Below are positions 9,014 through 35,407 of a DNA stretch of 64,000 nt, piece by piece. Position 1 is the first letter of the stretch. Each line of letters begins with the position of its first letter. The position numbers and the translations under genes were made by a program. The stretch lies in assembly GCF_035917995.1 (NCBI RefSeq), contig NZ_CP109131.1, positions 1,674,001 through 1,738,000 on the forward strand, given 5' to 3'. This stretch comes from Streptosporangium sp. NBC_01755 (GTDB lineage Bacteria; Actinomycetota; Actinomycetes; Streptosporangiales; Streptosporangiaceae). The notes below the pieces were generated by a model. That model searched no databases. It had not been told where the DNA came from and saw nothing but the letters and a program-made list of their open reading frames with translations.

Positions 9014-9778
9014 TCACCGCAACCGCTCCAGTACGCCCCTGACACGTAGTTCGGCGATGTGCTCGGCCGCCCGCGACGGTGTCGAACCGCCGTACACCAG
9101 CAGCCCGGCCTCGATGTTCCTGGCGACCCCGGACTGGGTGAGGTTGGCGCTCGACACGAGCAGCACCCGCCGGTCGGCGACGGCGAGCTTGGCATGCATC
9201 TTCGCCCCCTGCCCGTCCCGCCTGGCCGTCGGCCAGTGCCACAGCTCGACCCCGGGGACCGACGCGAACGCCGCCGCCGGCTCGGCGCCGCCCAGCGCGG
9301 AGCCCGCGCCCCGCAGGGTCTCGACGACGGCCATCACCGAGACTCCGCGCCGCACCGCCTCGGCCAGTGCGTCCAGCAGCGGCGGGTACGGCTTCGCGGA
9401 GTAGGTCATCAGAAGCAGTTCGTGCGACGCCTCGTTCACGACGTCCACCAGGACCTGCGCGGTGGACCGGACCGGCACAGAATGGGTGCCCGGCCCGCTC
9501 CACACCGCTTCGACCCGGTGGGCGGCGGCGTGCCGCGCGTACCCGTCGGCGACACCCCGCAGGTACGCCGCGGCCTCCCCGTCCGGTATCCCCTCGGCTT
9601 CCTGCGCCGCCAGTACGGCCCGCGCCACCTCGGCGAATCCGGGGGCCGGAACGGCCGAGGGGATCGCCGAGCGTGGTCCGTCCCCTGAGATCCGCTCGGC
9701 CAGCGTGCGAACTCGCACCGGTCCGAGCCGGGCGACGGCATCGGCCGCCACCTGGGCGAAGGGAGAGTCCGGCGTCAC
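9014..9778 (-). CDS. drmC: DISARM protein DrmC (phospholipase D-like)
   Basis: A 254-residue phospholipase D superfamily protein. One HKD motif is visible near residue 190 (MHAKLAVADRRVLLVSSANL, i.e. HxK with D further on). A degenerate first half (MTYSAKPYPPLLDALAEAVRRG) is also present. PLD-fold proteins of this size are the third core component of DISARM. The GTG start at 9778 overlaps the drmB stop as GTGA, a typical translational coupling. Much longer upstream frames are shadows of drmB. In studied DISARM systems DrmC is a core gene, yet it is not always essential for protection. Confidence 0.88.
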   Translation of the reverse strand: MTPDSPFAQVAADAVARLGPVRVRTLAERISGDGPRSAIPSAVPAPGFAEVARAVLAAQEAEGIPDGEAAAYLRGVADGYARHAAAHRVEAVWSGPGTHSVPVRSTAQVLVDVVNEASHELLLMTYSAKPYPPLLDALAEAVRRGVSVMAVVETLRGAGSALGGAEPAAAFASVPGVELWHWPTARRDGQGAKMHAKLAVADRRVLLVSSANLTQSGVARNIEAGLLVYGGSTPSRAAEHIAELRVRGVLERLR

Positions 9779-11706
9779 GGGATCTCGGGGTAGAGGGCCA
9801 GGTCTGGGTCGCCGATGGGCACGATGAACCTGCGGTCCAGGAAGCGGTTGCCGCGTTCGCAGGTCGTCTCGGAGACGAAGAGGCAGACGTGGCAGGCGGC
9901 GCCGTGCAGGAAGTCCTCGGGTGCCCGGGGCAGCCGCTCGGCGCAGAGCGGGTCGGAGGAGCAGTGCCTGGCCTCCGACAGCGCGCGGCGGGTCAGCCGG
10001 ACCAGTTCCTCGGGTTCGGCGAGCGAGACCAGCCCGCCCAGGGTGCCCTCTGCGTCCGGCACCGCCGTGTAGATCAGGATCCCGCTGCGCGGGTCGTCCT
10101 CGGTGCCGGCGTAGATCCGCTCGGACAGGCTGGCGGAGTTGTAGCCGCATTCCAGCGCGATCGTGCGGATCAGCAGGTGCGAGAGCGTGTGCAGGGCGTA
10201 GTAGCGCAGGTCCGGCCAGCCCCGGTACCTGTCGAACCCCAACGGGATCCGGTCGGAGTAGCGGTGGTCGCGGAACCGCCCGTACGCCTCCCGGTGCTCG
10301 TGTGGGACCGACCGCGTCTGGCCGCTGTGCTCATCCGTGAAGGAGGAGGCGCGTACCCGCCCCTCCCACGCCGTCAACAGGTCCTCGGACAGCTTCAGGA
10401 AGATGCCCTCGCCGCGTACCTCGCTCGCGGGCACCCAGGTGGGCTTGGAGCGGGCCAGCGGTGCCCGGGTCACCAGCTCGGGGTCCTCGAAGTCGGGGGC
10501 GTCCAGCCGGGTGAAACCGATCATCGCGCGGACCTCGCGCAGCCGCTCGGCCTGGATGACGTCGGCGAAGTAGCCCTTCAGCAGGCTGGGTACGCCGTCC
10601 GGGTGCCGGTGGAGGGTGAAGTCGTCGGTCGGCTCGGGGAGCGTGGGAGCGGAGAAGACCTGCCATTCGGGGGTGAGCAGGTCCAGCCGTCCCTGCACCT
10701 CACCGCTCGCTGCCTCCAGCTTGTCGCGGTGTCGCTCGATGGCCGCCCAGACCTCCTCGTTGTCGGGCCACTTCGCCAACTCGTGGGAGAGCGGCGCCAC
10801 GCGGCGCATGTACTCCAAGATCTCCACCCCGGGGGCATGCTGGAGGCTCTCCCAGAACTGCTCGACCCTGGCGTCCAGCTCGTCCGCGCCCGGCTTGGGT
10901 ACGGCGAGCGCGGAGAGGGGCTGCGCGAACCACTGGTTGGAGGCGCCCACCACGACGAGGTGCGGCTGCTGCTTGCAGCCGTTCTCGGCGAACGTGCCCA
11001 GGTGCGGGTGGCGGCCCCGGCAGCCCGGCAGTTCGGCCCTGCCCTTGCGCCCCATGGCCTCGCGGATGTTACGGTCCTCGCCGCAGCGCTGGCAGGTGAT
11101 CCGCACGTTGGCCCCGATGTTGCCGCCGAAGTCCTCCATACGCAGGTTGGGCTTGGGCGCCTTGGCGCACTTCTGGCCTCGGTGCACGAACTCCAGGTAG
11201 GGGAAGTCGTCCAGGTGCCCGGCCGTACAGGCCAGCACGAAACGGGCGCCGACCACCAGGCGTTCCTTGTTGCCGCGTCCGCACTCGTGGAAGAACCTGG
11301 CCTCGTGCGGCTTGCTCGGCTTGTCGTTCCTGAAGCCGAACGCCTGGGTGTCGATCGGCGCCAGCAGGTTGCAAGCGGTGCAGCGCATCCAGCTCGGGAA
11401 CGGCATGACCGGCACACCGACCCTGGCGGCCTCTCCCTTGGGTTTGGTATCGGTTCCGGGCAGCCAGGGAGCGGGCTTGAGCTCTCCGACGGTCTTGCCG
11501 AGGATCGCCTGCACGGCGGCGAGCAGCCGGGCTTCGATGATGACCTGCGGGGTGTCGCCGAGCCTGTCGTACCGCCAGTCGTCCAACCCTCTGACCAGCA
11601 CCGAGAAGTTCGGCAGGTCGACGATGGAGCCGACGCCGGAGGTGAACATCAGGTGGCTGGGGCGCACGGCCCCCACCCGGCGCAGGTACGGTGCGGAGTC
11701 GGCCAT
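9775..11706 (-). CDS. drmB: DISARM protein DrmB (DUF1998)
   Basis: A 643-residue protein with the DUF1998 signature in its C-terminal third: LHTLSHLLIRTIALECG, GILIYTAVPDAEGTLGGL, and then a zinc-type cysteine cluster (CAERLP, CHVCLF, CERGNRF). Further cysteine pairs occur in the N-terminal half (MRCTACNLL and CQRCGEDR). DrmB is one of the three DISARM core proteins and works with the DrmA helicase, forming a DrmAB complex on DNA. Its ATG at 11704-11706 overlaps the drmA stop by one base (TAATG), and its stop overlaps drmC, so drmA-drmB-drmC form a tightly coupled operon. Confidence 0.92.
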   Translation of the reverse strand: MADSAPYLRRVGAVRPSHLMFTSGVGSIVDLPNFSVLVRGLDDWRYDRLGDTPQVIIEARLLAAVQAILGKTVGELKPAPWLPGTDTKPKGEAARVGVPVMPFPSWMRCTACNLLAPIDTQAFGFRNDKPSKPHEARFFHECGRGNKERLVVGARFVLACTAGHLDDFPYLEFVHRGQKCAKAPKPNLRMEDFGGNIGANVRITCQRCGEDRNIREAMGRKGRAELPGCRGRHPHLGTFAENGCKQQPHLVVVGASNQWFAQPLSALAVPKPGADELDARVEQFWESLQHAPGVEILEYMRRVAPLSHELAKWPDNEEVWAAIERHRDKLEAASGEVQGRLDLLTPEWQVFSAPTLPEPTDDFTLHRHPDGVPSLLKGYFADVIQAERLREVRAMIGFTRLDAPDFEDPELVTRAPLARSKPTWVPASEVRGEGIFLKLSEDLLTAWEGRVRASSFTDEHSGQTRSVPHEHREAYGRFRDHRYSDRIPLGFDRYRGWPDLRYYALHTLSHLLIRTIALECGYNSASLSERIYAGTEDDPRSGILIYTAVPDAEGTLGGLVSLAEPEELVRLTRRALSEARHCSSDPLCAERLPRAPEDFLHGAACHVCLFVSETTCERGNRFLDRRFIVPIGDPDLALYPEIP

Positions 11707-14700
11707 TACTTGCCCTTCCCGTTCAGCTCGGACACGCCCATCTCGTCCCCTTCGGGGACCTCCACGCCCGTGCCGTCAGCGTCCGACGGCTGGAACGTCC
11801 AGGCCGGTGCCCCGTACGGCACGGCGAAGATGTCACCGCTGCCCGGCAACAGCAGGTTGAGCTCGTTCTCCGTCTCGCGCATCGAGTTGCCGACGGTCAG
11901 CGCGTCCCACCGGCCGTTGCCGGCCCGGTTCAGCAGGCCGAGCACGATCTCCTGCTTGGTGCTCTTGCGCTGTTCGTAGCCGAGCCGGGCCGCGCTGCCC
12001 TTGGCCTGCTCCCAGGAGTCGGTCACCACCTTGATCCGTTCGGCCAGGTAGTCGCGGGCGCGGACGTCGCCCGCCGCCTCGGCGCGGGTCAGCAGCCGGT
12101 CGACGATCCGGCCGACGACCGGCCCGGACAGCGGCACCTCCTCGGCGTCCCGGTTACGTGAGTACGACTCCTCGGCGTTGCGCACCGCGGCGACGAACAT
12201 GGCCGCGGTGCCCCGGTCCAGCGCCCGGCGAGTGTACGGGGTGACCGACAGCGCCTCGACCTGGCGGTAGAACGTGGCGTGGTAGTGCTCGAAGTCCTCG
12301 TAGTGCGCCAGGTCGCGGGGGCGCGACCAGTTGTAGAGCGTGATCACCAGACCGGGGCGTTCGGCGTCGCGGCCGACGCGGGAGGAGGCCTGGATGTACT
12401 CGGCGGTGTTCTTGGGCTGCCCGGTGACCACCATCAGCCCGAACCGGGAGACGTCCACACCGACCTGGAGCATGGAGGTGGCGAGCACCGCGTCCACCGG
12501 CTGGCGACCCGTGCCGCGCCGCCGCTGACGCTCGGCCAGCGGATGGGCGTTCCGGCGTTTCTCCTTGTTCTTCTCCTTCAGCACGTCGGCCCACTCCGCG
12601 CGGATCGCGTACCGGCGCCCCGAGGTGTCCGTCTCCTGGTCGAAGCCGATCTCCAGTTGCTTGAGCACCTCGCTGATGTCTCCTGAGGAGATCCGGGAGG
12701 TCAGCTCCACCACGGTGAGCAGGTCTGCCGGGGAGGAGAGCCGGTTGGCGATCCCCTTGCGCCTGCCGTGCGTCCGGATCCGCGTGGTCACGTCGTCGTC
12801 CAGATAGCGGCGCATGCCGGCCAGCTCGCGGGTGGCGTTGAAGTAGCCGACGACCGTCATATAGGGGTCGGCGGGCTCGCCGTACCGGTCGAACATGGTC
12901 TGCCCGGCCAGGAACAGGATCTCCGCCAGCCTGATCTCGGCGGACTTGAGCCTCGTCCCATGCGCGCAGACCCCGAGGTAGCGGCGGCCGGGCGTCTTCT
13001 CGGTGAGCGGCACCTGCCGGGAGAAGAAGGTGTCGGTGACGTCGATGACCTGCGGCGGGAACACCGCGAGCCGGCGACCGAAGACCCCGAGCACCTGGCG
13101 TTCGGCCCGTTTGGTGGTCGCGGTGGAGGCGATGATCTTCGGCCCGGTCAGGGTCCCGGGGCGGGGGCTCCAGGTGCAGAGCTCGTCCACGGCCGCCTCG
13201 AACAGGCCGACCGTGGTGCCGAGCGCGCCGGAGATCAGGTGCAGCTCGTCCTGGATGATCAGGTCCGGCGTGCGGAGCCGGAGGACCGGGCGACTGACCA
13301 CCTTGGGCAGCTTCCCCTTGGCGTGGTGCTTCGCACCGCATTTAACGTGCTCGTCCAGGTCGGTGTGGCGGTAGCCGTGCCGGGGGCACCGCTGGCTGAC
13401 CCGGCCGAACAGGTGACCGGCGAACCCCCGCCAGGGAAGCTGCGCCAGCTTGTCGACGGTGGCGATGACCAGGCTGGGGACCAGCCGGTAGATCTCCTCG
13501 TCGACGGTGAGGATCGGCATCCCGTCCCGGCGCGCGGCGATCTCCTCGGCGTCGTCCAGTTCGGAGGTGAGCATCCGGTCCTCGCCGATCCGGGAGAACG
13601 GGCAGGGGTCGGCCTCGCCCTCCCGGCCCCGGCCGCAGTAGAGCAGCACCCTCCTGCGGTCATCGTCGGTGAAGAGATTGCGATCCCCGGTCAACTTCTC
13701 TCCGCACCACGGGCAGGTCAGCGTCTGCAGCACGTTGGTCCTGCGGCCGGCCGGCGCCTCCCTGGCCTCGTGGATCTGGTCGGCCGCCTCGGTGAACCAG
13801 TTCGGGGAGACAGCACCGCCCACCCACAGGCCGATCCGGAACGGCTCCTCACCCCAGGTCGCCGGGTCCGCGCGGCGCTGCACCTCGGCGGCGCAGACCA
13901 GGGCGGCGGCCCGCTGGAACTGCTGCGCGGTGAGCAGCCGCAGGGTGTAGCGCATCAGCACCGACACCCCGGACCGACCGTCGCGGGCGTCGGCCCCGGA
14001 GCCGACCGTGCCCTGCAGGCGGCGGATCGCGAAGGTGTAGGCGGTCAGGCCGAGGTACGCCTCGGTCTTGCCGCCGCCGGTCGGGAAGAACAGCAGGTCG
14101 ACGGTGGCCGAGGCGTCGGCGGCCCGCTCGGCGTGCTCGGGGTCGGTCAGCGACGGCAGGTTGAGCAGCACGAACGCGAGCTGGAACGGCCGCCACGACG
14201 CGGCGCTCTCCCCCTGTGCCTCCACCTTGGCCATGGCCTGCGGGTAGCTCAGCCCCAGCTCGTCGCGGAGCTTCCCGACCGTGGTTCGGCGGCGCTGCGC
14301 GGCCATCGCGGTGTTGGCGAACCGGAACGCGGCCAGCGCCTGGTCGTGGCGGTCCCGCCCGGGGTCGGTGAGCAGCTCGACCCCGTCGCGGATCCGTCTC
14401 GCGGCCTGCTCCGCCTTGTACACCGCGTTCTTGGCCACCTCGCGAAGCGGCTCGGGCAGATCCGGGATCCGGTTCCGCTGCCCGTCCAGCCAGGCGGCGT
14501 ATCCGTCCGCGAGCGGGTGCAGCCCGGCTGCGAGATCCTCCGGCGAGGCCATGGCCAGGACGTCCATGGAGAGCTCGACCTCGGCCAGTGCGGTCCCCTT
14601 GCCGACCGGGGCGACGGTGGCGGGCACGTCGTAGGCGGGCAACCAGGTGGTACGCAGCTCCCGCGCGCACCGCTCCCCTTGGGCGACCTCGGCGTGTACG

Positions 14701-15728
14701 GCGACGTTGCGACCGGAGGCGTAGCGGCGCTCGTGCCGGTAGAGCAGCCGCAGATGCCGCTCCTCCAGGTCGTCGCCGACCGCCTCCAGGTCGTCCACCG
14801 GGTCATCGATCGGCAGGAAGACATCGGCGGCCTGGGTGGCGTGGGGATCGGCGGCGGTGGCGGCGGTGGCGGCGGCGGCCGTGGCGGCCGTGATGTTGCC
14901 GCTCGCGGCGTCGCCGTCGGCGGGGACGAGGACATCGGTGCCGGGTGCGGTCACGGTCAGTCCGGCCTGGAACAGCCAGGCGACGTCGGGGGTGCGTTCC
15001 GGCTCGATCTGCTGGTTGATCAGCGTCAGCTCGACGACCCGGCGGCCGTCCCGCTGCGGCCGGACCGCCACCGCCAGCAGGACACCCGGGTCTTCGGCAC
15101 GTTCCATGGTGAGCGGAATCCGCTGCGACGGCTCACCGTCGAGCCGGACCGTTTTCCGGTGGTCCACCTGCTTGCGCGTCCAGGTCGAGGCGGTGCGTTC
15201 CCTGCCTTTGGCATCCTCGATCATGGTCTCGGTCTTGGTGTAGCGCCCCCAGGAGGCGACGACGGCGAGTGCGTCGACCTCGCCGGGCACCGCGAAGGAC
15301 AGTCCCATGGACGAGGCCCAGATCCGGCCGAGGTTCTGCGGGGTGAGCACCTCCGGCAGCTCACCCTCGGCGCCGTCACCCTCGACCCCGATCTCGGTCT
15401 CCGGCATCTCTCCCGCGTCCTCCCGGGCCGACCGGTGCGAGGGTTTCGGGCCGAGCATTCCGACGAGGTAGCGCTCCCGCGGCCCGGACGTCCCACGCGG
15501 TAGTTCCTCGCCGTCGCCGTCCCACGGACCGAGCAGGTCACGCCGTACGAGCTCCTCGAACGCGTCACGCACCTGGAAGGACGTGCCCTGCTCGAACGCC
15601 TGCGAGGTGTCCAGACCAGGAGGCACCTGTTCCTTTTTAACCGGTTTATCCGATTTTTCGACTACAAAGTCGAGCCCTTGCTGTTTGTCACCTAAATCCG
15701 GAAAAAGGTCTTCCTGGTCGTTGATCAC
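11706..15728 (-). CDS. drmA: DISARM helicase DrmA
   Basis: A 1340-residue superfamily 2 helicase. Motif I is FFPTGGGKTEAYLGL (near 556) and motif II is IIQDELHLISG (near 828). Motif III is ASTATTKRAERQ. The C-terminal lobe has SMLQVGVDVSRFGL and QASSRVGRDAERPG. Cysteine pairs (CPWCGEKL, then CGRGREGEADPCPF) suggest a zinc-bound insert. This matches DrmA, the core DISARM ATPase that with DrmB binds and probably unwinds or translocates DNA with 5' single-stranded ends. The GTG start at 15728 gives an N-terminus MINDQEDLFPDL whose QEDLF resembles a sliding-clamp-binding peptide. An alanine/threonine-rich stretch lies near residues 275-300. It is separated from drmMI by 12.3 kb, which is unusual for DISARM. 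Confidence 0.92.
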   Translation of the reverse strand: MINDQEDLFPDLGDKQQGLDFVVEKSDKPVKKEQVPPGLDTSQAFEQGTSFQVRDAFEELVRRDLLGPWDGDGEELPRGTSGPRERYLVGMLGPKPSHRSAREDAGEMPETEIGVEGDGAEGELPEVLTPQNLGRIWASSMGLSFAVPGEVDALAVVASWGRYTKTETMIEDAKGRERTASTWTRKQVDHRKTVRLDGEPSQRIPLTMERAEDPGVLLAVAVRPQRDGRRVVELTLINQQIEPERTPDVAWLFQAGLTVTAPGTDVLVPADGDAASGNITAATAAAATAATAADPHATQAADVFLPIDDPVDDLEAVGDDLEERHLRLLYRHERRYASGRNVAVHAEVAQGERCARELRTTWLPAYDVPATVAPVGKGTALAEVELSMDVLAMASPEDLAAGLHPLADGYAAWLDGQRNRIPDLPEPLREVAKNAVYKAEQAARRIRDGVELLTDPGRDRHDQALAAFRFANTAMAAQRRRTTVGKLRDELGLSYPQAMAKVEAQGESAASWRPFQLAFVLLNLPSLTDPEHAERAADASATVDLLFFPTGGGKTEAYLGLTAYTFAIRRLQGTVGSGADARDGRSGVSVLMRYTLRLLTAQQFQRAAALVCAAEVQRRADPATWGEEPFRIGLWVGGAVSPNWFTEAADQIHEAREAPAGRRTNVLQTLTCPWCGEKLTGDRNLFTDDDRRRVLLYCGRGREGEADPCPFSRIGEDRMLTSELDDAEEIAARRDGMPILTVDEEIYRLVPSLVIATVDKLAQLPWRGFAGHLFGRVSQRCPRHGYRHTDLDEHVKCGAKHHAKGKLPKVVSRPVLRLRTPDLIIQDELHLISGALGTTVGLFEAAVDELCTWSPRPGTLTGPKIIASTATTKRAERQVLGVFGRRLAVFPPQVIDVTDTFFSRQVPLTEKTPGRRYLGVCAHGTRLKSAEIRLAEILFLAGQTMFDRYGEPADPYMTVVGYFNATRELAGMRRYLDDDVTTRIRTHGRRKGIANRLSSPADLLTVVELTSRISSGDISEVLKQLEIGFDQETDTSGRRYAIRAEWADVLKEKNKEKRRNAHPLAERQRRRGTGRQPVDAVLATSMLQVGVDVSRFGLMVVTGQPKNTAEYIQASSRVGRDAERPGLVITLYNWSRPRDLAHYEDFEHYHATFYRQVEALSVTPYTRRALDRGTAAMFVAAVRNAEESYSRNRDAEEVPLSGPVVGRIVDRLLTRAEAAGDVRARDYLAERIKVVTDSWEQAKGSAARLGYEQRKSTKQEIVLGLLNRAGNGRWDALTVGNSMRETENELNLLLPGSGDIFAVPYGAPAWTFQPSDADGTGVEVPEGDEMGVSELNGKGK

Positions 15729-23057: not shown

Positions 23058-23127
23058 TCCGGTCGAGTTCCTCCGCTGGTAGGAGAACAACGGCAAGACG
23101 GCTGCGAACTGGCGCAATATCCGATCT

Positions 23128-24993: not shown

Positions 24994-25352
24994 TTTCACC
25001 CGCTCCTGGTCAGTACGTCGGGCATAGGACCGGCACCGTTCGCAGACGGGGGACGCCGCGCTCTCCCCCACGGGGGACGAGGGGAGCACGGTGCCGGTCC
25101 TACGAGGAAGTACGGCCGGGGAGCGTCGCAGATGTGTCGCCGGTCGTACCGCTGAGGCCGGACGGACACCCGGTACGGGGTGGGCCGCCTCGGGAGGGAA
25201 GATCGTCCGCCCGGCCGTCTGGGGAAATCATGCGTTTCGCCTTCCAGCGGGGAGCCCGCCTGGAAAGCTTACGGAGTGAGCATGCACCATCACCATGAGT
25301 AAATGCAATGCAGGTTCTTACACTGCCCGCATAGTCCAGAGAGGTGCTGAAG
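24994..25352. other. divergent promoter region
   Basis: About 360 bases between the ATP-binding protein gene and the DUF5753 regulator gene. It should contain both promoters. I see no strong box or inverted repeat that I would name. Confidence 0.4.
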
Positions 25353-26246: not shown

Positions 26247-26260
26247 CGGAAGGAACCGAG

Positions 26261-26467
26261 ATGCAACCAGATCTATCCGGTGCACGCTGGCGCAAGAGCA
26301 GCCTCAGCGCCGACGGCCCGAGCTGCGTCGAGATGGCGTTCGTCGGCAACGACGTCGCCGTCCGCGACACCAAGAACCGCGACGGCGGCACCCTCATCTT
26401 CCGCCGCACCGACTGGACCACCTTCATCAACGGCATCAAGAACGGCGACTTCGCCCCCCTCTCCTGA
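26261..26467 (+). CDS. DUF397 protein
   Basis: A 68-residue protein typical of DUF397: ARWRKSSLSADGPSCVEMAF, then VAVRDTKNRDGGTLIF and WTTFINGIKNGDF. Start ATG at 26261 after GGAAGGAACC, 14 bases after the regulator's stop, so the two genes are an operon. DUF397 proteins act as partners, possibly antagonists, of DUF5753 regulators. Confidence 0.92.
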   Translation: MQPDLSGARWRKSSLSADGPSCVEMAFVGNDVAVRDTKNRDGGTLIFRRTDWTTFINGIKNGDFAPLS

Positions 26468-26546
26468 CCACCCCGAAGAACTCCAAAACCGACAGGACCG
26501 AGTCCCGCGAGGAGAAGATCCGAGGCCGCCAGCCTGCCACAAAAAA

Positions 26547-26670
26547 GCGAGGTCCCGCCCAGTGGGCGGGACCTTCAACCAACGGCGCATGTCCGATGGC
26601 GTGGTCAAGGTCGACAAACAGGCCCATTTCCATGCCCGGCAACTCACTTGGAGTAATAGGCGCACCCACG
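26547..26670. repeat. repeat A, copy 1, starting with a strong hairpin
   Basis: About 124 bases that recur as a diverged copy at 27875-28000. Common landmarks are the opening hairpin followed by CTTCAACCA, then GGCG(C/T)-type segments, and the end ACTCAC(T/C)(T/C)GGAGTA. On the minus strand both copies can be read as a short peptide with TPSEL and VEGPAHW, but start codons and length differ, so coding is doubtful. Confidence 0.7.
26551..26573 (+). terminator. hairpin downstream of the DUF397 gene
   Basis: GGTCCCGCCC and GGGCGGGACC form a 10-bp perfect stem with a 3-base loop, 84 bases after the DUF397 stop. There is no T-run, as is common for actinobacterial terminators. The equivalent hairpin at 27879 keeps the pairing despite changed bases. 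Confidence 0.65.
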
Positions 26671-26708
26671 CGGCCACCGCCTCGGGGCCGGACAGCGCGA
26701 AGGCCGGA

Positions 26709-26818
26709 CGCCCGATTCCATCGGGAGGCCCGGCCTCACTTCCGCACCCCAAGGGGTGCGGCACAGCCCGTCTCGCCAAGAATGACCAGGCAAGCATGTT
26801 GAGCCATAAAAGGCGCGA
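26709..26818. repeat. repeat B, copy 1
   Basis: About 110 bases, from GCCCGATTCCATCGG to GAGCCATAAAAGGCG, which recurs at 26826-26940. It contains a small hairpin (GCACCCC, AA, GGGGTGC at 26744-26759). No gene is convincing here. Confidence 0.65.
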
Positions 26819-26825
26819 GAGCCGG

Positions 26826-26940
26826 GTGCCCGATTCCATCGGTGGTCCCGGCCTCACTTCCAACGCCCACCGGGGGCGCGGCACACCCAGCCTGCCTCAC
26901 CAAAAGCGACCGAGCAAGCACTTTAAGCCATATGGCGGCC
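26826..26940. repeat. repeat B, copy 2
   Basis: Direct repeat of 26709-26818, beginning GCCCGATTCCATCGG and ending AAGCCATATGGCGG. The hairpin in the same place has a different sequence (CGCCC paired with GGGCG), which suggests the structure is kept rather than the bases. Confidence 0.65.
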
Positions 26941-27208
26941 GATCCCACGCACCCGCCTTCGGCTCCCAGCCGGCACAGACGGCCACGGCCATCCAGCAAC
27001 GCCACCGTTCCCCGTACGGCGGACACCTCCGCGTCCTGTCAATCTACCATGACCGCGACCGCAACGGCCCGGCTCCACGCCATCGCCGCAGCGCCGCCCG
27101 CTCAAGGCATGGTGCTGCCTCGCGGCGAAAGAGCGGGGTCGTTCCCAGTCCCCGTACTCCCGTTCGAGCGGCGCGCGAAACCCGCACCTCTTTAACTTTG
27201 CGTGACGA
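26941..27208. other. non-coding stretch before the NYN gene
   Basis: With the two repeat B copies this makes about 750 bases between the DUF397 and NYN genes without a supported gene. Long open frames here run across the repeats and into the NYN gene and have no family character. Confidence 0.5.
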
Positions 27209-27220
27209 TATATTCACTCT
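27209..27220 (+). promoter_or_regulatory. -10 box of a probable leaderless promoter
   Basis: TATATT at 27209-27214 is followed by only six bases before the GTG start of the NYN gene. No Shine-Dalgarno site is present. A -10 box at this distance is the pattern of leaderless transcripts that begin at the start codon, common in actinobacteria. Confidence 0.55.
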
Positions 27221-27874
27221 GTGCTTACGAACGTCTATGTTGACGGGCTCAACCTCTTCTACGGCCGTCTCAAGGGCAGCCCGTACAAGTGGTTGGACCT
27301 CGATGCTTTCACCCGGCGCCTACTACCGGAACATGAGATCCACCGCATCCGCTACTTCACCGCCAATGTCATGGCATGGCCGGATGACCCCGACAAGCCA
27401 AACCGGCAGGACTTCTACCTCAGAGCCCTGGCCACGATTCCACATCTCAGCATCCACCTCGGGCGCTTTCAGGTCAGCACAGTCCGGATGCGCCTGGCCC
27501 ATCCTCCCCCGGTCGGCCCGAAGACGGTGGAGGTGATCAAAGTGGAAGAGAAGGGAACGGACGTCAACATCGGCGCCTACCTGCTCTCCGACGCTCTCGG
27601 CGGTGACTGCGAATTCACTGTCGTGATCAGCAATGACGCCGATCTCGCGGAACCCATCCGGATGGTCTGCCATGACCATGGCCTGCCGGTGGGCATCCTC
27701 AACCCCGGCCGACGCTCCAAGGGCAGTTGGCAACTGCAGCAGATTCCGCCGACCTTCTTCCGCCAGATCAAGACAAGCGCCTTCGAAGCCTGTCAGTTCC
27801 CTGAGAGGCTCAAAGATCACGAGGGAGACATCGAGCGTCCGGCGTTGTGGCACCCGGACCTCTGGCGGAAATAA
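27221..27874 (+). CDS. NYN-domain (PIN-like) ribonuclease family protein
   Basis: A 217-residue protein with the NYN pattern: VYVDGLNLFYG at the N-terminus, EKGTDVNIGAYLLSDAL near 112, and TVVISNDADLAEPIRMV near 135. The aspartates of these three motifs would bind the metal. NYN proteins are predicted RNases (LabA/YacP-like). The gene starts with GTG and probably has a leaderless message. A hairpin follows four bases after the stop. It lies in the DISARM interruption but reads in the opposite direction. Confidence 0.85.
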   Translation: MLTNVYVDGLNLFYGRLKGSPYKWLDLDAFTRRLLPEHEIHRIRYFTANVMAWPDDPDKPNRQDFYLRALATIPHLSIHLGRFQVSTVRMRLAHPPPVGPKTVEVIKVEEKGTDVNIGAYLLSDALGGDCEFTVVISNDADLAEPIRMVCHDHGLPVGILNPGRRSKGSWQLQQIPPTFFRQIKTSAFEACQFPERLKDHEGDIERPALWHPDLWRK

Positions 27875-28000
27875 GTGAGGCCCCGTCCAATGGGCGGGGC
27901 CTTCAACCACCGGCACGTGTCCGGCGGCGTGGTTGGAACCAGTAAACCGGTCCACCTCCGTGTCTGTCAACTCACTCGGAGTAGCAGGCGTATCCGTCAC
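27875..28000. repeat. repeat A, copy 2
   Basis: Diverged direct copy of 26547-26670, again immediately downstream of a plus-strand gene and again opening with a 10-bp hairpin followed by CTTCAACCA and closing with ACTCACTCGGAGTA. Confidence 0.7.
27879..27901 (+). terminator. hairpin downstream of the NYN gene
   Basis: GGCCCCGTCC and GGGCGGGGCC form a 10-bp stem with one G-T wobble and a 3-base loop, four bases after the NYN stop. Compared with copy 1 at 26551, a T-A pair has become C-G on both sides of the stem, a compensated change. Confidence 0.7.
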
Positions 28001-28076
28001 GCTCCTTCCCAACGGCGCTCGGGGTGAGCCGAGTGCCACGCTCAGCTCATCCCGGGCCCCCTCGCCTTGCCCCCTG

Positions 28077-31000
28077 TCAGAACAGGTCCTCCTGGTCGGT
28101 GTTCGCCTTGGCCTTGGGCTTGCCCCGGGTGTTCTTCTTGGCCCCCTTGTCGTGCAGGCCCTGGGCGACCTCTTCGGCATAGCGGGCATGGTTGAGCTCC
28201 AGCAGCCGGTCTACCAACTCCCGCTGCACGCCGGGGCCGACCGTGTAGCGGGTCTCCCGGGCTACGGGGTGGTGACCGTGGTCAAGCTTGTCAATCAGGT
28301 CGTCCCAGCCATAGGCGCGGCAGACCGCCTCGTCGATAGCCCGGTGGATACGGCGAAGCTCGACGATGTCCTCGTCCTCGCACTTGGGGTCGTTAACCAG
28401 GTTGTAGGTGGCGGTGAGACCGGCTTGGCGGGCAAGCATGAGGCGGCGGCGGAAAGTGTCGAGCCGGTTGCCGAGATCACGCATCTCCTGGGTGAGTTCG
28501 GGGAGGGGCAGCGTCTCGAACACGTCTGATGGCGTGTAGCGCAGGTCCGCCTTCATTGACGACGCGCGTGCACGCGCCCACCAGTAGTGCGGCGCGCTCG
28601 ACAGCAGCCCCAGCATCGCCATGTCATCTGTCGCGAAGACGCCAAGCATGTGCGAGAACACCTGCCCAGTCGGCACCATCACCGGCATCACGACCTTGCT
28701 CACGAGTGTGATCACAATGATCTGTTTCAGCCCAGCAATAGCTTTTAGCATCCCAGGACGCTTTTCGGCATAGTGCCACCAGTAATCACGGTAAACTTTA
28801 CGGTTATTAGTTTCCCGTTGCGGCTTCACTAATCGAATCACTTGATCATACGGCCCCACATAGGTCCTAGCAATATCTTCTGGCCAGTCATGGAAGTTAA
28901 TAACCCAACGACTCCCAGAAAAATCTGGACGGGAATTTAGATCTTGCCCATTAACGTAGGGGAACAGAACTTCGGCATTCTGTGAATCATCCTTAATCAT
29001 AGCCATAGCAACATTGGATTCGACCGTGAACCCAATGGCATCCAGCTTTGATCCAGTAAACGAAATCCCTTGACTCCCAAAAAGTCGATAGGGGTTCCCG
29101 GTTAAACGAGATACCGGATCAAGAGACGGGGTGATTCCTGCGACAGGCACGTCATCGGCAATCCGCTTGACATCTTCACCGAGCGCCATGCGGCTGATCC
29201 AGACTGCACAATACTCCAGTACCGCACTCTTCGACGGCCACGGACGACTCTTTACAGATTTGCGAATCACGGCCCCATCGGCCACAAGTTGATCGAGTCC
29301 GACCTCACGAGTGTCGCCTTGAGCGAGGGTATTAGTAGCAATTAAGCCAGCTTGACCACCCTTATCAAGAACTGCATGAGAACGTAAAGTGAAATAGGCT
29401 ACTAGATCCGCATTTCCGCGCTTACTATAACCGATCGATTCAACCAAGTACTCGCGATACAGCAACCCAAACGCACCGGTAATTTTAGAACCTCCAAGGA
29501 ACGGCGGGTTACCGATGACGGCGTCGAACCCTGCTCCTTCGAAGACCTCAGGAAACACCAATGGCCAATGGATAGGCTGCCGGTCAAAGTTTCCTTCCAA
29601 TTGATCGGTAGCGAGCCACTCCTTGCGTAGCTCCCGAGCCTCTAGCTCCCCTCTACCCTCAAATACGTCATTTGCCACCTTCGCCGCGTGCTCCGAACCA
29701 ACCTTGAGAGCCCGGTCCCCCTTGCCTGCATATGCCAGCGCTGCCCCCACTGTCAGGTCAGCAAAAAGCCGCAACTGCGCCGAGGCAATACCTATCTCTT
29801 CGAGCCGTGCCCGCTTCCTGGCCAAACCTGCCAGTGGGTCCTCTCCCAACTCGATATCCGCGATTCCCCGACGCCTATCGGCCAGTTCGGCGACCTTGGA
29901 GCGAACCCCTGCCGTCCAGTCGAACAGGTCCTCATGGACCTTCCGACCCTTCGCCGGGTCCATGTGCATGACCTCAAGCTGCTCAAGAGACGTGATCCCC
30001 AGCAGCGAGTCCCCCGCCACCAACCGGTCGTCCACGAAAGTGAACGGCCGAGCCGGGTCCATCGAGACCAGCCATAGCGACAGCTTGGCCATCTCCACGG
30101 CCATCGGGTTGATGTCCGCGCCGTACAGGCAGTGCTCGATGATCTGCCGTCGGGCCTCGATGACCAGCGGGTCGGCCTCGGCGTCGACGGTGCGTACCCG
30201 GTCGTCCTCGCGGCCGTCCAGGTAGGCGACCGCGCGCTCGTCGCCCTCGCGGGACCAGGCTTCGACCAGGGCCTCGCCCAGGTAGCGGGCCGCGGCGACC
30301 AGGAAGGCGGCCGAGCCCATCGCGATGTCGGCGACCTTGAGCTTCAGGATCTCCTTGGCCGTCTTCGGCTTCCACTGCGACCGGTCGGCGGTCTGCAGCG
30401 GGCCGACCGTGTAGATCAGCGGCTCCAGGGCCCCCTCGACGACCTCCTCGGCGAGCTTCCTCGGCGTGTAGTGGGTGCCGGTGTTCTTCCGCAGCGCCGA
30501 CTCGGTGACGTACAGCGTGCCGGGCAGGATGACCAGCGGCAGGCCGCGCAGGTCGTCGCGGATGATCCCGGCGAACGGCAGCAGCCGCCGGGCCAGCTCG
30601 GCTTCCCCTCCGGTGGCCGCGAGCAGTTTCCGGGTCGCCTCCAGCTCACCGGCCGCGTCCAAGGGGGTCAGTTTTCGGGCGACGGCGCCTGCCGTACCGA
30701 GCCCGGTGTCCCGGTACAGCTCGGCGAGTTTGGCGGCGAAGCCGTCGCCCGTCGTACCGCCGAATCCCGCGGCGAGGCTCTCCAGGTCGGTCAGCTCGAC
30801 CTCGGCCTCCTTACCGGCCTTGCCGATCAGGCCGACGACGGTGTCCGCCGCGCGGAAGCCCTCGAAGGAGAGCAGGCCCTCGTAGACGTAGCCGATCTGC
30901 TCGACGTCCAGGGAGCGGAAGCTGAGCTTGCGGCGCTCGCGGTTCTTCCCGGTGCCGACCTCGACGTACTGCACCGCCTTGAGCATGTGCAGGACGGTCC

Positions 31001-32252
31001 GGTCGTCGATGTTCAGCGGCATCCAGGAGAAGGTGTCCGGGTCGAAGAGCGAGCCGTCGTGCGGGTGCATGCTGAGCCGGGGGTGGTCGACGCCCCGGTA
31101 GACGGCCTTGAAGACGGCGAGCAGCCGGTGCCAGGCGGCGTTGCCGTTCTCCAGCTCGGTCTCGGAGCCGTCGATGGCGAGCTGCTCCAGCTCGGCGCAG
31201 AGCCGGCCCGCGGAGTAGGCGGTGGCGTAGACCTCGTTGTCGGCGGGGAGCAGGCCGCGCTCCTCGGCGAAGAGCAGGAAGACGATCCGCATCATCACGG
31301 TCACCGAGCCCCGGTAGACCTCGTGCGCCTTGATGTCGTCGCGTACCCCGGCCCGGCCGATCGCGGTGACGAGCAGCTCGACGGCCTGGCGGACCTGGAC
31401 GCCGAGGGCCTCGGTGATCTCCTCCTGGTTGTCCAGGCTGGCGGCCAGCAGCGCGGGCAGCCGCTCCGCCTGGGGTACGGAGAAGAAGCGGTCGAGTTTG
31501 AGCAGCGAGACGAACGCGCGGAGGACGTCGCGCTCGGCGGCCTCCGGCCAGGGGATCGCGTCGAAGACCGCGGTGGTGGTGACGCCGCCCTTCGGCGCCC
31601 AGACCAGGGTCCACCAGCGGCCGTCGGTGACCAGGCCGAGTTCGACGCCGTGGTGGCGGCAGAGCTGGGCCATCCGGTCGACGGGGGTGGCGGCCCAGGT
31701 GGAGGTACGCATCCGGGCCATCGGGTGATCGTTGCTGATCATGCCGAGCAGCCGTACGTCCCCTGCCGCGATCGGGCGCGGCGTACCGCCGATCGCATCC
31801 GAGTCCGGTGCGGTGCCGATCGCACCCGGGTCCGGTGCGGTGCCGATCGCACCCGGGTCCGGTGCGGGACCGGCCCCGGCGCCCGAGCCCGGCACGGTCA
31901 GGGCGAAGTGCGGGGTGAGGGAGGTGTCGTGCTCGGGGACCTGGATGGTCAGCTCGTCGATGCCGCCGATCCGTACCGCGTCGTCCCAGCCGAGCAGCTC
32001 GCGCAGCACGTGGCCGATCCAGGCCCGGCGGACGGCGGCGGTCTGGTCCCTACGGTCGCGGCCGGCCAGCCAGGTGGCGTGCGCGAGGCGGAGCCGGTCG
32101 ACCTCCGTCCTGTTCAGCGAGTCGAGCTCCGGCCAGGCCGACCTGAGCACCGGCACGCTGAGGAACGGGCCGGAGACCTCGACGAGACTCAGCCACTCCT
32201 GGTGCCGGCGTACCGCGTCCCGCTCCCTGCCGAACGTCCTGCCCCGGCTCAT
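28077..32252 (-). CDS. drmMI: DISARM class 1 adenine methyltransferase DrmMI
   Basis: A 1391-residue N6-adenine DNA methyltransferase of the PglX/Eco57I-like type. The SAM-binding motif reads DIAMGSAAFLVAAARYLGEA near 640 and the catalytic NPPF lies near 911 in FDAVIGNPPFLGGSKI. The C-terminal third should hold the target recognition domain. In class 1 DISARM this enzyme marks self DNA. The ATG overlaps the drmD stop as ATGA. A 9-residue repeat (PDPGAIGTA type) sits near residues 128-154. The part between about 28690 and 29870 is visibly lower in GC than the rest, as if the recognition domain came from another source. The protein ends TDQEDLF, resembling a clamp-binding peptide. The next DISARM gene, drmA, is 12.3 kb away. 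Confidence 0.92.
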   Translation of the reverse strand: MSRGRTFGRERDAVRRHQEWLSLVEVSGPFLSVPVLRSAWPELDSLNRTEVDRLRLAHATWLAGRDRRDQTAAVRRAWIGHVLRELLGWDDAVRIGGIDELTIQVPEHDTSLTPHFALTVPGSGAGAGPAPDPGAIGTAPDPGAIGTAPDSDAIGGTPRPIAAGDVRLLGMISNDHPMARMRTSTWAATPVDRMAQLCRHHGVELGLVTDGRWWTLVWAPKGGVTTTAVFDAIPWPEAAERDVLRAFVSLLKLDRFFSVPQAERLPALLAASLDNQEEITEALGVQVRQAVELLVTAIGRAGVRDDIKAHEVYRGSVTVMMRIVFLLFAEERGLLPADNEVYATAYSAGRLCAELEQLAIDGSETELENGNAAWHRLLAVFKAVYRGVDHPRLSMHPHDGSLFDPDTFSWMPLNIDDRTVLHMLKAVQYVEVGTGKNRERRKLSFRSLDVEQIGYVYEGLLSFEGFRAADTVVGLIGKAGKEAEVELTDLESLAAGFGGTTGDGFAAKLAELYRDTGLGTAGAVARKLTPLDAAGELEATRKLLAATGGEAELARRLLPFAGIIRDDLRGLPLVILPGTLYVTESALRKNTGTHYTPRKLAEEVVEGALEPLIYTVGPLQTADRSQWKPKTAKEILKLKVADIAMGSAAFLVAAARYLGEALVEAWSREGDERAVAYLDGREDDRVRTVDAEADPLVIEARRQIIEHCLYGADINPMAVEMAKLSLWLVSMDPARPFTFVDDRLVAGDSLLGITSLEQLEVMHMDPAKGRKVHEDLFDWTAGVRSKVAELADRRRGIADIELGEDPLAGLARKRARLEEIGIASAQLRLFADLTVGAALAYAGKGDRALKVGSEHAAKVANDVFEGRGELEARELRKEWLATDQLEGNFDRQPIHWPLVFPEVFEGAGFDAVIGNPPFLGGSKITGAFGLLYREYLVESIGYSKRGNADLVAYFTLRSHAVLDKGGQAGLIATNTLAQGDTREVGLDQLVADGAVIRKSVKSRPWPSKSAVLEYCAVWISRMALGEDVKRIADDVPVAGITPSLDPVSRLTGNPYRLFGSQGISFTGSKLDAIGFTVESNVAMAMIKDDSQNAEVLFPYVNGQDLNSRPDFSGSRWVINFHDWPEDIARTYVGPYDQVIRLVKPQRETNNRKVYRDYWWHYAEKRPGMLKAIAGLKQIIVITLVSKVVMPVMVPTGQVFSHMLGVFATDDMAMLGLLSSAPHYWWARARASSMKADLRYTPSDVFETLPLPELTQEMRDLGNRLDTFRRRLMLARQAGLTATYNLVNDPKCEDEDIVELRRIHRAIDEAVCRAYGWDDLIDKLDHGHHPVARETRYTVGPGVQRELVDRLLELNHARYAEEVAQGLHDKGAKKNTRGKPKAKANTDQEDLF
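31791..31868. repeat. 27-bp tandem repeat inside drmMI
   Basis: Nearly three copies of a 27-base unit beginning GATCGCACCCGGGTCCGGTG. It encodes a 9-residue repeat in a flexible part of DrmMI. The unit length keeps the frame, so copy number can change without harm. Confidence 0.85.
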
Positions 32253-35200
32253 CGGGTGGCCTCCCGCTTCGGCACGACGAAGACCACGGCCACCGGGAAC
32301 CGGTGCGACTGCGGGTCGCGGTAGCGGGCCGCGATGGTGGCGAGCTCGCGGTCGCGCTCCTCGGCAAGGCGGGACAAGCGGTCCTCCCAGGATCTGCGGT
32401 CTCTTCGGTACTGGTCGAGCTCTTCCTTGTTCCGGCTCGCCTCGATCCGGCTGAACAGGGCGTCCTCATCGGTGTTCTCGGCGAGCTTGGCGCGGAGCGT
32501 GCTCTCGAACCGGGCCAGGTTGGCGGTCAGCCGGGCCTGCTCGGCCTCCATCCGCTGGGCGAGCTTGCGCTCCAGTTGGTCGCGTTTCTGGTCCTTGCCG
32601 TTGACCCGCCAGTCGATCGACTGCAGAACGGCCTCGCCGACCTTCGGCCAGAGCGCGGCCAGGCGGTGCCGTACCGGGGCGGAGGCGGGGGTGCCGCCGG
32701 CGAGCGCCCGGCCCAGCAGGGTGCCGAGCGCGGTCACGCTGTCCAGCCGCCGGAACCGGCCGCTCTCCGGGATCCAGCCTCCGGCGTGCAGCACCTCCTC
32801 GTGCAGCCGGATACCGTCGCCGCCGACCAGGACGAACCGGAAGAACGCGCCGACCAGTGTGGTCTCCAGCGCGGGGTCGTCGCTGACCATCGCGGTCACC
32901 CGGTGCAGGTCGATCTCGGGGTTGGAGACGGCGGCGCGGAGCAGCCGGGTGGACATGGCGACGAGCGGGTGGTTCAGGTGGGCGAGGACCACGTCGTCGC
33001 GTACCCGGCCCTGCGGGTCGAGGGTGGCCCGCTCGTCGAAGGTGACCGGGCGCTGCCTGGGCACCTCGTCCTTCCTGCGGAGTTTCTCGGCGAGTCCGGC
33101 GGTGGCGCGCTCCCAGGAGCCGGTGAGCGGCGGCACGTCGTACAGGCCCTCGGCGAGGTGCTTGTCGTCGGTGTGCCTGCGGAGCGGCTGCTGGCGGGCC
33201 AGGCCGAGCGCGGTGTCGACCACCCGTTTCACCTTGACCGGGTTGAGGTCCAGCTCGCGTTTCGTGTCGTCGAGGTTGGCGCGGAGCCTGCGCACCTGCT
33301 CGCCTACGTCGGTCTCGGCCTGCACGGTCTGCTTCTGCGGTGCGCGCTCCACGTCGTAGTCGGGGATGCCGCCCAGCATCCGCTTCTGTACGGCGTCGGC
33401 CAGCACCGCGTTGACCGAGCCGAGGTCGTCCTCCATCCGGGCGACCTTCTTCGCGATCCGGGAGAGGAACTCCAGGTCGGCCTCGAAGGAGTCGACCGCA
33501 CTGTCCCAGCCGGTGCCGACGAAGTGGCGGATGTCGGGGTTGTGCTTCTGGCCCCACCGGTCGACCCGGCCGATCCGCTGTTCCAGCTTGTTGGGGTTGA
33601 ACGGGATGTCGTAGTTGATCAGCCGGTGGCAGTGGTTCTGCAGGTCGATGCCCTCGCTGGCGGCGTCGGTGGCCAGCAGGATCCGTACCGGGTGCTCGGC
33701 CGGGTCGGTCTGGAAGGCGACCCGGAGCTGCTCGCGGTCGTCGGCGGCGATCCCGCCGTGCAGGATGGCGAGCCGGTCCCCGGCCAGGTCCTCCTGGCGG
33801 AGCAGTTCGGTGAGCCAGCGCTGGGTGTCGCGGTACTCGGTGAAGACGACGACCCGCTCGTTGGTCCAGTGCCGGTCCGGGCGGCAGACCGCCTTGAGGT
33901 AGGTGATCAGCTCGCGGGCCTTGGCGTCGGGGGCGCCCGCGTAGTCGAGCGCCCAAGCGCGCATCCGGTTGAGCAGCTCGACCTCGGCCTCGGTGGCGGC
34001 GCCCTGGAGCGGCGCGGCCATGCCGATCGCGTCGTCCTCGGCCTCGGCCAGCGGCTCGTCGTCGAGGGTGGCGGTGTTCTCCCAGAACTCCTCCGCCCAC
34101 TCGGGGATCTCGTCATCGTCGTCGTCCGTCTCGACCGCCCGATCAGTGACGTTGCTCAGGTAGACGCCGACGGTGTGCGCGAACGCGGCCGGGCTGGAGA
34201 AGAGCCGCTTCTTCAGCAGCAGCGTCACCAGGTCGGCGGCCTTGCGGCCCTTCCGGCTCCGGTTGAGCCGGTTCCGGCGGAGTTCCGCGAACTCCTTGAG
34301 CAGCCCGTGGGCCTCGCGCTCGTCCTCCGGGTAGTGCACCGGGATGGCCTGTGCGGCGCGCTCCAGGAAGCGCTTGCTGCCGTCCTTGTTGACGATGTGC
34401 CGCTTGAGCCTGCGTACCATCACCTCGCCGACGGCGGCCTTCGCGGGTTCGACGCCCCTGGCGAAACGCTGGTCGTCGAGGATCTCCAGCAGCGCGGTGA
34501 AGCTCGCGTCGTAGCCGTTGTGCGGGGTGGCGGAGAGGAAGAGCCGGTGGGTGAAGTGCGGGGCGAGGTGGCGGATCAGCTTGGTCTGCTGGGAGTCGAC
34601 CGCGTAGACCTGCTTGGGCGCGGCGGGTGCGACGTGGTGGGCCTCGTCCAGGATGAGCAGGTCGAAGCGGCGCTCCAGCCCGGATGAGTCGAGCACCTCG
34701 TTCAGCAGCCGCTGCGCCTTCGGGCCGCGCAGCCAGGGCAGGCTGACGATGGTCAGCGGGTAGACCTTGAACGGGTTGGCGGCGCTGCCGTGGGTGCGGC
34801 GGACCACCGCGCAGCGCTCGGTGTCGACGATGGTGAAGTCCAGGCCGAACTTCTCCGCCATCTCGTCGCGCCACTTGAGGGTCAGCCCCGCCGGGCAGAC
34901 GATCATGATGCTGCGGGCGCGGTTGCGGAGCAGCAGTTCCTGGGCGACGAGCCCGGCCTCGATGGTCTTGCCGAGGCCGACGTCGTCGGCGAGCAGCAGG
35001 TTCACCCGGGGCGCGTCCAGGGCGCGGGCCACCGGCTCCAGCTGGTAGTCCTCGATGGCGACGCCGGAGCGGAACGGCGCCTGGAGCGTCTTGACGTCGG
35101 CGCTGGCCACCGCGGACCAGCGGATCGCGTCCAGAAAGGCGGCCAGCCGCTCGGGCGGGTCGAACCCGTCGGGGGTCACCTCGGGCAGCGAGCCGCTGGG

Positions 35201-35407
35201 CAGCACCCGGCGGCCGGGCTCGATCTCCCAGACGACGTCGAGCCGGTCGCCGTACCGGCCGTCCTCGACGCTCTGCAGGCCGACCAGGGTGCTGGGCTCG
35301 CCGGCGTCGACCTCGCTGACCACCCAGCGCTGCCCTCGGATCTCCACCAGGGCTCCGATGCCCGGTCGTTGCTGGGTCGCGCTCAGGGGGGTCGCGCTGG
35401 TCACCAT
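32249..35407 (-). CDS. drmD: DISARM class 1 SNF2-type helicase DrmD
   Basis: A 1052-residue SNF2/RapA-like ATPase. Motif I is LLADDVGLGKTIEAGLVAQE (near 150), motif II is LILDEAHHVAP, and the C-terminal lobe has LLATDAASEGIDLQNHCHRL and EQRIGRVDRWGQ. A coiled, charged region follows near the C-terminus (residues about 960-1030). DrmD defines class 1 DISARM together with DrmMI. It probably moves along double-stranded DNA and drives remodelling. ATG at 35407 is preceded by GAGGAG. It is the first gene of the operon. The motif GTGAACTAAG lies 215 bases upstream, pointing towards it. Confidence 0.92.
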   Translation of the reverse strand: MVTSATPLSATQQRPGIGALVEIRGQRWVVSEVDAGEPSTLVGLQSVEDGRYGDRLDVVWEIEPGRRVLPSGSLPEVTPDGFDPPERLAAFLDAIRWSAVASADVKTLQAPFRSGVAIEDYQLEPVARALDAPRVNLLLADDVGLGKTIEAGLVAQELLLRNRARSIMIVCPAGLTLKWRDEMAEKFGLDFTIVDTERCAVVRRTHGSAANPFKVYPLTIVSLPWLRGPKAQRLLNEVLDSSGLERRFDLLILDEAHHVAPAAPKQVYAVDSQQTKLIRHLAPHFTHRLFLSATPHNGYDASFTALLEILDDQRFARGVEPAKAAVGEVMVRRLKRHIVNKDGSKRFLERAAQAIPVHYPEDEREAHGLLKEFAELRRNRLNRSRKGRKAADLVTLLLKKRLFSSPAAFAHTVGVYLSNVTDRAVETDDDDDEIPEWAEEFWENTATLDDEPLAEAEDDAIGMAAPLQGAATEAEVELLNRMRAWALDYAGAPDAKARELITYLKAVCRPDRHWTNERVVVFTEYRDTQRWLTELLRQEDLAGDRLAILHGGIAADDREQLRVAFQTDPAEHPVRILLATDAASEGIDLQNHCHRLINYDIPFNPNKLEQRIGRVDRWGQKHNPDIRHFVGTGWDSAVDSFEADLEFLSRIAKKVARMEDDLGSVNAVLADAVQKRMLGGIPDYDVERAPQKQTVQAETDVGEQVRRLRANLDDTKRELDLNPVKVKRVVDTALGLARQQPLRRHTDDKHLAEGLYDVPPLTGSWERATAGLAEKLRRKDEVPRQRPVTFDERATLDPQGRVRDDVVLAHLNHPLVAMSTRLLRAAVSNPEIDLHRVTAMVSDDPALETTLVGAFFRFVLVGGDGIRLHEEVLHAGGWIPESGRFRRLDSVTALGTLLGRALAGGTPASAPVRHRLAALWPKVGEAVLQSIDWRVNGKDQKRDQLERKLAQRMEAEQARLTANLARFESTLRAKLAENTDEDALFSRIEASRNKEELDQYRRDRRSWEDRLSRLAEERDRELATIAARYRDPQSHRFPVAVVFVVPKREATR

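Follow-up and report, generated by a model that had tools for sequence, protein, structure and literature searches.

A GC-poor block that takes in TRD-N of a Streptosporangium DISARM methylase, and its probable exchange by recombination

The drmMI gene of Streptosporangium sp. NBC_01755 (referred to here as Q, with homologue loci carrying L-numbers such as L009) encodes a DISARM adenine methylase of MmeI-like fold and contains a sharply bounded block of low GC3 that takes in the first half, TRD-N, of its recognition domain (TRD). The best explanation, to which we assign a probability of about 0.72, is that a block with TRD-N was exchanged in this methylase, probably altering part of its target. 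The gene would be a mosaic in which a block of about 1.2 kb has a history unlike that of its flanks. From a helical insertion this block would run through the catalytic region at motif IV and on through TRD-N, starting near a GDSLLG motif and stopping close to the joint with the second half, TRD-C. Across the family, recombination among drmMI genes has apparently replaced such blocks time and again, with breakpoints near conserved motifs (GDSLLG, NPPF and RYTPSDVFET) and sometimes near the half-domain joint. Given breakpoints of both kinds, each TRD half would be reshuffled on its own, and TRD-C would often travel with the C-terminal part. If MmeI is a guide, replacement of TRD-N should alter the first bases of the methylated site and spare those read by TRD-C. 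The data establish the block with its edges, the valley across the family, the pattern of exchange and the absence of correlation between the two halves; we infer that it was the strain's own copy that changed, through a donor, and that its target changed with it.

The drmMI gene and its DISARM locus

The window, that is the whole stretch of 64,000 nucleotides that was analysed, belongs to a genome of 8.15 Mb and carries all five DISARM components as matched by PADLOC, namely drmMI, drmD, drmA, drmB and drmC (Table 1), a combination that we take to be DISARM class 1. The drmD and drmMI genes lie upstream, and drmA, drmB and drmC follow on the same strand about 12 kb downstream of drmMI; the start of the drmC ORF as drawn is probably too early. 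The insertion of about 12 kb that parts the two groups (window 15729-28076) carries a DDE transposase spread over two ORFs (16869-18274), next to it an NB-ARC/TPR gene (18464-20452) and, further along, an HTH-DUF5753 gene (25344-26246). Varied cargo is also encountered in the stretch after drmMI on cyanobacterial plasmids (L160, L162, L164, L165 and L170), including XisH/XisI, GIY-YIG, a PIN domain and an ATP-binding protein, and in four of these five loci it is shown between drmMI and drmA, like the insertion at the Q locus. At L168, the drmMI gene of the Nostoc sp. C057 plasmid p057_A is apparently broken by an IS4 transposase.

Defence-like genes surround the DISARM locus (window 2664-8954 and 44286-49944); they comprise two PD-T4-6-like genes, a UvrD-type helicase, a HEC-05-like protein, a PD-(D/E)XK protein and a Type I-like methylase with a specificity-like C-terminus. 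A very large ORF of 1845 aa (37900-43437) combines laminin-G and Ig-like repeats with a NucA/NucB DNase domain at its C terminus and may encode a secreted polymorphic nuclease.

DrmMI matches the PADLOC model DrmMI PDLC02643 with 1713 bits, and the Pfam families Eco57I, MmeI_Mtase and MmeI_TRD, the latter two above cut-offs. Pfam detected no nuclease domain in the protein, including the PD-(D/E)XK domain that would be expected at the N terminus of MmeI-like enzymes. The predicted fold covers the C-terminal 817 residues and was obtained with 32 relatives (mean pLDDT 87). L090, a locus from the same family, has a protein identical to that of L009 of Sphaerisporangium melleum JCM 13064. DISARM methylases are considered to mark the host's own DNA (PMC9142583).

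Table 1. Features of the drmMI gene and of the DISARM locus, in window coordinates
Feature	Position	Strand	Basis
drmC	9014..10150	-	PADLOC DrmC 370 bits; match from residue 130
drmB	9775..11706	-	PADLOC DrmB 213 bits
drmA	11706..15728	-	PADLOC DrmA 967 bits
drmMI, DISARM adenine methyltransferase, MmeI-like, 1391 aa/codons	28077..32252	-	PADLOC, Pfam, fold
drmD	32249..35407	-	PADLOC DrmD 1390 bits; DrmA-labelled model also 1357
Low-GC3 block, codons 781-1182	28707..29912	-	Maximum-likelihood GC3 scan
GDSLLG motif, residues 747-752; 5′ breakpoint cluster 740-790	29997..30014	-	Breakpoint fit
Helical insertion ahead of motif IV, residues ~783-880	29613..29906	-	Helices at model residues 209-306
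Catalytic motif IV NPPF, residues 915-918; 5′ breakpoint cluster 900-930	29499..29510	-	
TRD-N, residues ~1046-1177, within block	28722..29117	-	Hand count, profile alignment to MmeI 621-745
TRD-C, residues ~1178-1253, beyond block	28494..28721	-	Hand count, profile alignment to MmeI 746-825
RYTPSDVFET motif, residues 1238-1247; 3′ breakpoint cluster 1235-1262	28512..28541	-	

Extent and content of the low-GC3 block

The composition of drmMI is far from flat along the gene, as a maximum-likelihood scan places GC3 at 0.51 within the block and at 0.93 elsewhere. The log-likelihood gain of this partition is 147, against 8.7 for the best of 20 shuffles of the gene's own codons. Both edges are sharp: the first low codon is 781 (2-lnL interval 755-792) and the last is 1182 (1172-1185). 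The segment of 28690-29870 claimed in an earlier note on this DNA, made from the sequence alone, was right within about 45 bases. Among 14 genes of the window scanned alike, drmMI ranks first, with a gain of 38.7 for the runner-up; some of the other gains sit at an ORF start (for example, drmA codons 6-40), perhaps as the result of a wrongly chosen start, which is a guess.

The block contains the helical insertion, NPPF and TRD-N, and codon positions 1 and 2 are likewise GC-poorer within it. The earlier note had described a segment around NPPF and the recognition domain, of which NPPF and TRD-N do lie inside and TRD-C lies outside. In Q the GC3 of TRD-C is near that of the flank (a drop of just -0.08), and among 125 genes Q ranks second deepest for the drop in TRD-N and tenth smallest for that in TRD-C.

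A GC valley across homologues

For the alignment, 15 of 114 loci were omitted (own-genome copies, truncated or gapped genes and one duplicate), followed by identical proteins, which left Q and 96 homologues. Among 18 loci added later two were duplicates of proteins in the set, L176 (identical to L020) was dropped, and the final set holds 125 genes.

TRD-N has a lower GC3 than the flank in 124 of these 125 genes, Q among them. Averaged over 84 GC-rich homologues, GC3 runs at 0.86-0.94 up to residue 780, at 0.79-0.83 in the insertion, at 0.62-0.72 over residues 901-1260 and at 0.78-0.81 beyond. Restriction to fourfold sites gives the same picture: over codons 1021-1182, 108 of 109 genes (flank values from 0.23 to 0.99) have a lower GC4 than in the flank, and amino-acid-standardised GC3 is lower in the TRD in 106 of 109 (109 of 110 rows were counted, the remaining one, probably L168 with its gene cut by an IS, being under the length limits). 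In variable regions elsewhere in the gene, 80 of 109 genes are also lower than the flank, with a median difference of just -0.05 to +0.01 across five GC bands. The valley is present at flank GC3 values from 0.25 to above 0.95, and extends to drmMI copies on cyanobacterial plasmids (flank GC3 0.25-0.64), where TRD GC3 is lower in 13 of 13 analysed; these derive from 14 fetched loci (L171, annotated in several pieces, was omitted), and several of them are close relatives of one another. In three Planktothrix copies the TRD alone, and not the motif IV part, is lower in GC3.

The GC valley is therefore a family trait and not evidence of one recent event, since a dip found in nearly all homologues means that low GC alone shows no recent event in the Streptosporangium strain. 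The earlier note had taken low GC as the mark of an event specific to this strain, and had named a low-GC segment common to all homologues as grounds for giving up that idea; with 108 of 109 genes dipping at fourfold sites, that idea largely falls.

Dips were also seen outside the drmMI family, in few genes only. Two related methylase genes of the Q genome (L002 and L004, at 5.72 Mb and 4.77 Mb) dip too, and a methylase gene at 4.59 Mb has no clear dip. The hsdS gene L120 has a GC3 of 0.77 over its recognition regions, and its neighbour has 0.92. For hsdS of E. coli K-12 (L192), most of the stretches that we take to be TRDs have a GC3 of 0.15-0.25 versus 0.66 in hsdM.

Exchange of the recognition block

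Pairwise identities of the two flanks follow each other across the family (rank correlation 0.76 for the N versus the C flank), and those of the N flank and the TRD hardly do (0.18). Both hallmarks of exchange, conserved flanks around a diverged TRD and a common TRD on diverged flanks, are encountered. N-flank, TRD and C-flank identities are 0.97, 0.34 and 0.97 for L105/L109, 0.98, 0.42 and 0.84 for L013/L018, and 0.98, 0.43 and 0.81 for L095/L098; conversely, L052 and L183 share a TRD at 0.81 on N and C flanks that are both at 0.45. The separate comparison of segment and flanks that the earlier note had proposed shows flanks of 97-98% identity around TRDs of 34-43% identity.

A three-segment fit of codon identity was applied to 33 disjoint pairs with N identity above 0.80, and a low-identity middle was found in 25. 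Their 5′ breakpoints fall at 900-930, around NPPF, in 14 cases and at 740-790, around GDSLLG, in eight; the 3′ breakpoints fall at 1235-1262 in eight pairs, at 1263-1315 in eight, at 1160-1190 in four and elsewhere in five. If breakpoints were placed uniformly, clustering at NPPF would have p ~1e-8 and clustering at RYTPSDVFET p 0.004, for ranges that were picked after looking at the data. Q and L089 form one of the eight pairs without a low middle: the fit breaks at 780, after which identity is 0.41 and does not recover. Where these two proteins have the same residue, the share of codons that are also the same is 0.58-0.93 in the N flank, 0.32-0.57 over codons 776-1200 and 0.58-0.73 thereafter.

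The position of the valley was compared with that of the breakpoint in 23 of the 25 pairs (L057/L061 and L044/L066, with 5′ breakpoints at 1180 and 1182, were omitted). The GC3 drop of the helical insertion relative to that of the TRD has a median of 0.55 in eight early-breakpoint pairs versus 0.22 in 14 late ones broken at NPPF (p 1.4e-4), and the insertion is GC-poor in Q and in most genes of the early-breakpoint class. The position of the GC3 edge itself also differs with breakpoint class (p 0.005), a rule that some pairs break (L191, L104, L106 and L108). The GC-poor stretch thus begins earlier where the breakpoint is earlier, which ties the valley to the exchanged block. Exchange of the recognition part by recombination, as proposed in the earlier note, has the support of the family data and agrees with what is seen in Q; low GC, from which the note set out, does not by itself point to a recent event in Q, and of the TRD only TRD-N lies in its block. 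A change in the methylated sequence, also proposed there, would probably follow for part of the target.

Trees of the TRD and of the flanks gave mixed results. In AU tests on quick trees, all six N-flank clades withstood the TRD data, and the N-flank data rejected both TRD clades tested (p < 1e-49). Of four N-flank clades put to the TRD data on a careful tree of 28 rows, three were rejected, namely Q+L089 (p 0.009), L095+L098 (p 0.001) and L030+L183+L038 (p 0.008), the last group having been named after the trees were inspected. In the TRD tree L089 departs to join L098 (support 100/99), and Q adjoins L009 (90/54), which is a near relative in the N tree too. The event of Q itself is unpolarised, and the copy that changed may be Q or L089.

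Two halves of the recognition domain

In MmeI, the first two base pairs of the site are read by TRD-N (residues 621-745) and the others by TRD-C (746-825), the two halves making up its TRD (PMC4833311). By hand count along a 57-bit domain match, in which an error of some residues is possible, D745 of MmeI falls on DrmMI residue 1177, and the mapped joint at 1177/1178 falls inside the interval of the 3′ edge in Q (1172-1185). The TRD-C of Q is 92% identical to those of L009, L091 and L097, and its TRD-N is 44-66% identical to the same three (66% for L009). For L011 of Micromonospora noduli GUI43, identity to Q is 88% in TRD-C and 48% in TRD-N.

In 41 disjoint pairs the identities of TRD-N and TRD-C are uncorrelated (rho -0.23, p 0.14); as controls, the two halves of the N flank (N1 and N2) give rho 0.91 and two parts of the C-terminal region 0.61. 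TRD-C identity follows that of the adjoining C-terminal part (rho 0.48, p 0.002). Of the 41 pairs, seven retain TRD-N next to a replaced TRD-C, three show the reverse, two retain both halves, two have both replaced, and 27 are intermediate; in five of the seven, the C-terminal part is also at most 67% identical. The Planktothrix plasmid copies L162 and L163 have a codon identity of 0.89 and 0.88 on the two sides of residues 1136-1257 and of 0.31 inside, a replaced stretch that starts about 30-40 residues ahead of the mapped joint. Among plasmids of Planktothrix agardhii, L163 is unlike both L162 and L164 mainly around TRD-C, and the last two are annotated under different names, MmeI and PglX.

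A tentative extension, which we hold to be possible and on balance doubtful, is a recognition code of two cassettes. Each TRD half would be a mobile module of its own, TRD-N along with what precedes it and TRD-C often along with what follows, and would recombine without the other, in a pool that is AT-richer than its hosts at every host GC, so that specificity would evolve by the combination of half-sites and not by point change.

Origin of the low GC3 and alternative explanations

No AT-rich donor of the block was found on plasmids, on phages, among viral contigs or in 180 genomes of the family. Its nearest relative in the 180 genomes is 67% identical and lies within another drmMI copy; the best plasmid match is at 49%, one phage record is at 30%, and viral contigs gave no match to the block (an extra viral scan used the whole DrmMI protein). 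A pull of TRDs towards one average composition was rejected, as it predicts a higher GC3 in AT-rich hosts and all 13 plasmid copies go lower.

The strongest alternative, which falls somewhat short of an even chance, accepts that blocks are exchanged and denies that AT-richness is a mark of import: the TRD region would have its own lower equilibrium GC3 in every host. This might come about, for example, if the lack of a similar allele to recombine with leaves GC-biased conversion or weak selection for GC idle inside the TRD. Such an equilibrium agrees with a valley at all flank GC levels, with nearest TRD relatives that are other drmMI copies and not an AT-rich donor, and with a TRD GC3 that shows no association with TRD similarity (Mantel p 0.51) and a weak one with flank similarity (p 0.014). 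Equilibrium GC3 was estimated with a two-state model in nine triplets from GC-rich hosts. Four of the nine fit within 0.05 of present GC3 (fitted/present 0.80/0.77, 0.75/0.73, 0.75/0.76 and 0.80/0.76), below the 0.90-0.95 of pooled flank sites, which again suits a lower equilibrium; single triplets range over 0.05-0.95. The common fit for TRD sites speaks against it, lying at 0.80-0.85 and so above the present 0.60-0.77, with values of 0.75 or less costing 7-10 lnL; stationary simulations return 0.50-0.70 when rates vary and 0.60-0.80 when they do not (12 runs per setting). A fit with a shared root was bimodal, and a second form of it over the nine triplets was ambiguous. The GC-poor stretch, moreover, shifts with the breakpoint, so that allelic recombination would have to be lost in the whole block. 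As sources of the AT-richness, import from an AT-richer pool followed by incomplete amelioration and an equilibrium that is lower locally are about equally likely.

It is very unlikely that the low GC3 is functional, with AT-rich codons slowing translation or shaping the mRNA while the recognition domain folds. Its conserved position across the family would fit; the start of the valley, however, moves with the breakpoint, TRD-C of Q is nearly normal, and rare-codon pausing is disfavoured by the AT-rich hosts of the cyanobacterial plasmids, where all 13 copies go down although AT-ending codons are common at such low GC3.

Equally improbable is a recognition domain that was never exchanged and just evolves fast under diversifying selection. 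The quick-tree tests, which left flank clades unrejected by TRD data, are in its favour, but it is at odds with an 81% identical TRD on 45% identical flanks, with the clustered breakpoints and with the rejections on the careful tree, and fast protein evolution alone is disfavoured by the little valley seen in other variable regions. The valley might also be an artefact of amino-acid composition, for which the GC-poorer codon positions 1 and 2 in the recognition domain might speak; this is ruled out by the fourfold sites and the standardised GC3.

Significance

Exchange of the block with TRD-N thus being the preferred reading, an edge in synonymous composition may mark where recognition modules swap, which makes a local oddity testable. 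Should methylomes confirm it, combinations of half-sites could serve to predict what DISARM methylases target. The results also bear on why hypervariable defence genes are AT-rich, where the pull to a common average is unsupported, and an AT-rich mobile pool and a lower local equilibrium remain. In titles and the beginnings of abstracts, a scope with subscription journals mostly outside it, no report was found of a GC valley over TRDs (older hsd work could hold one), of TRD-N and TRD-C being exchanged separately in methylases of MmeI-like or DISARM type, or of a valley whose edge follows a breakpoint, which is no proof of absence.

Comparison with known systems

The closest solved relative of DrmMI is MmeI, a Type IIL restriction-modification enzyme (PDB 5hr4), both by fold (Z 24.6, rmsd 4.4, 546 aligned residues) and by profile (1e-22 with an alignment of 46 rows and 5.9e-18 with 33); a single-sequence search of the PDB with DrmMI gave nothing useful. 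Both proteins have an adenine methylase followed by a two-part TRD, and the NPPF motif at 915, the MmeI-type Pfam domains and the 5hr4 fold place DrmMI among MmeI-like enzymes. DrmMI differs in its DISARM locus, its longer N-terminal part and the helical insertion before NPPF, and the two are 18% identical in the fold alignment. PglX/BrxX of BREX (8c45, 8q56, 9ewz and 8zek) has the same overall fold class (Z 17-20), yet its profile match is weaker (2e-6 to 6e-5), and drmMI lies in a DISARM and not a BREX locus.

Movement of TRDs is already known for Type I and Type III systems (PMC3983042): in those of Helicobacter pylori, recognition domains move within and between genes (PMC3983042 and PMC3077401). 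Here, in contrast, the halves of one TRD vary separately in a single-chain DISARM methylase, and a composition valley is tied to the breakpoints. Type I HsdS, as in E. coli K-12, has a similar dip in GC3, but is a separate specificity subunit with two TRDs.
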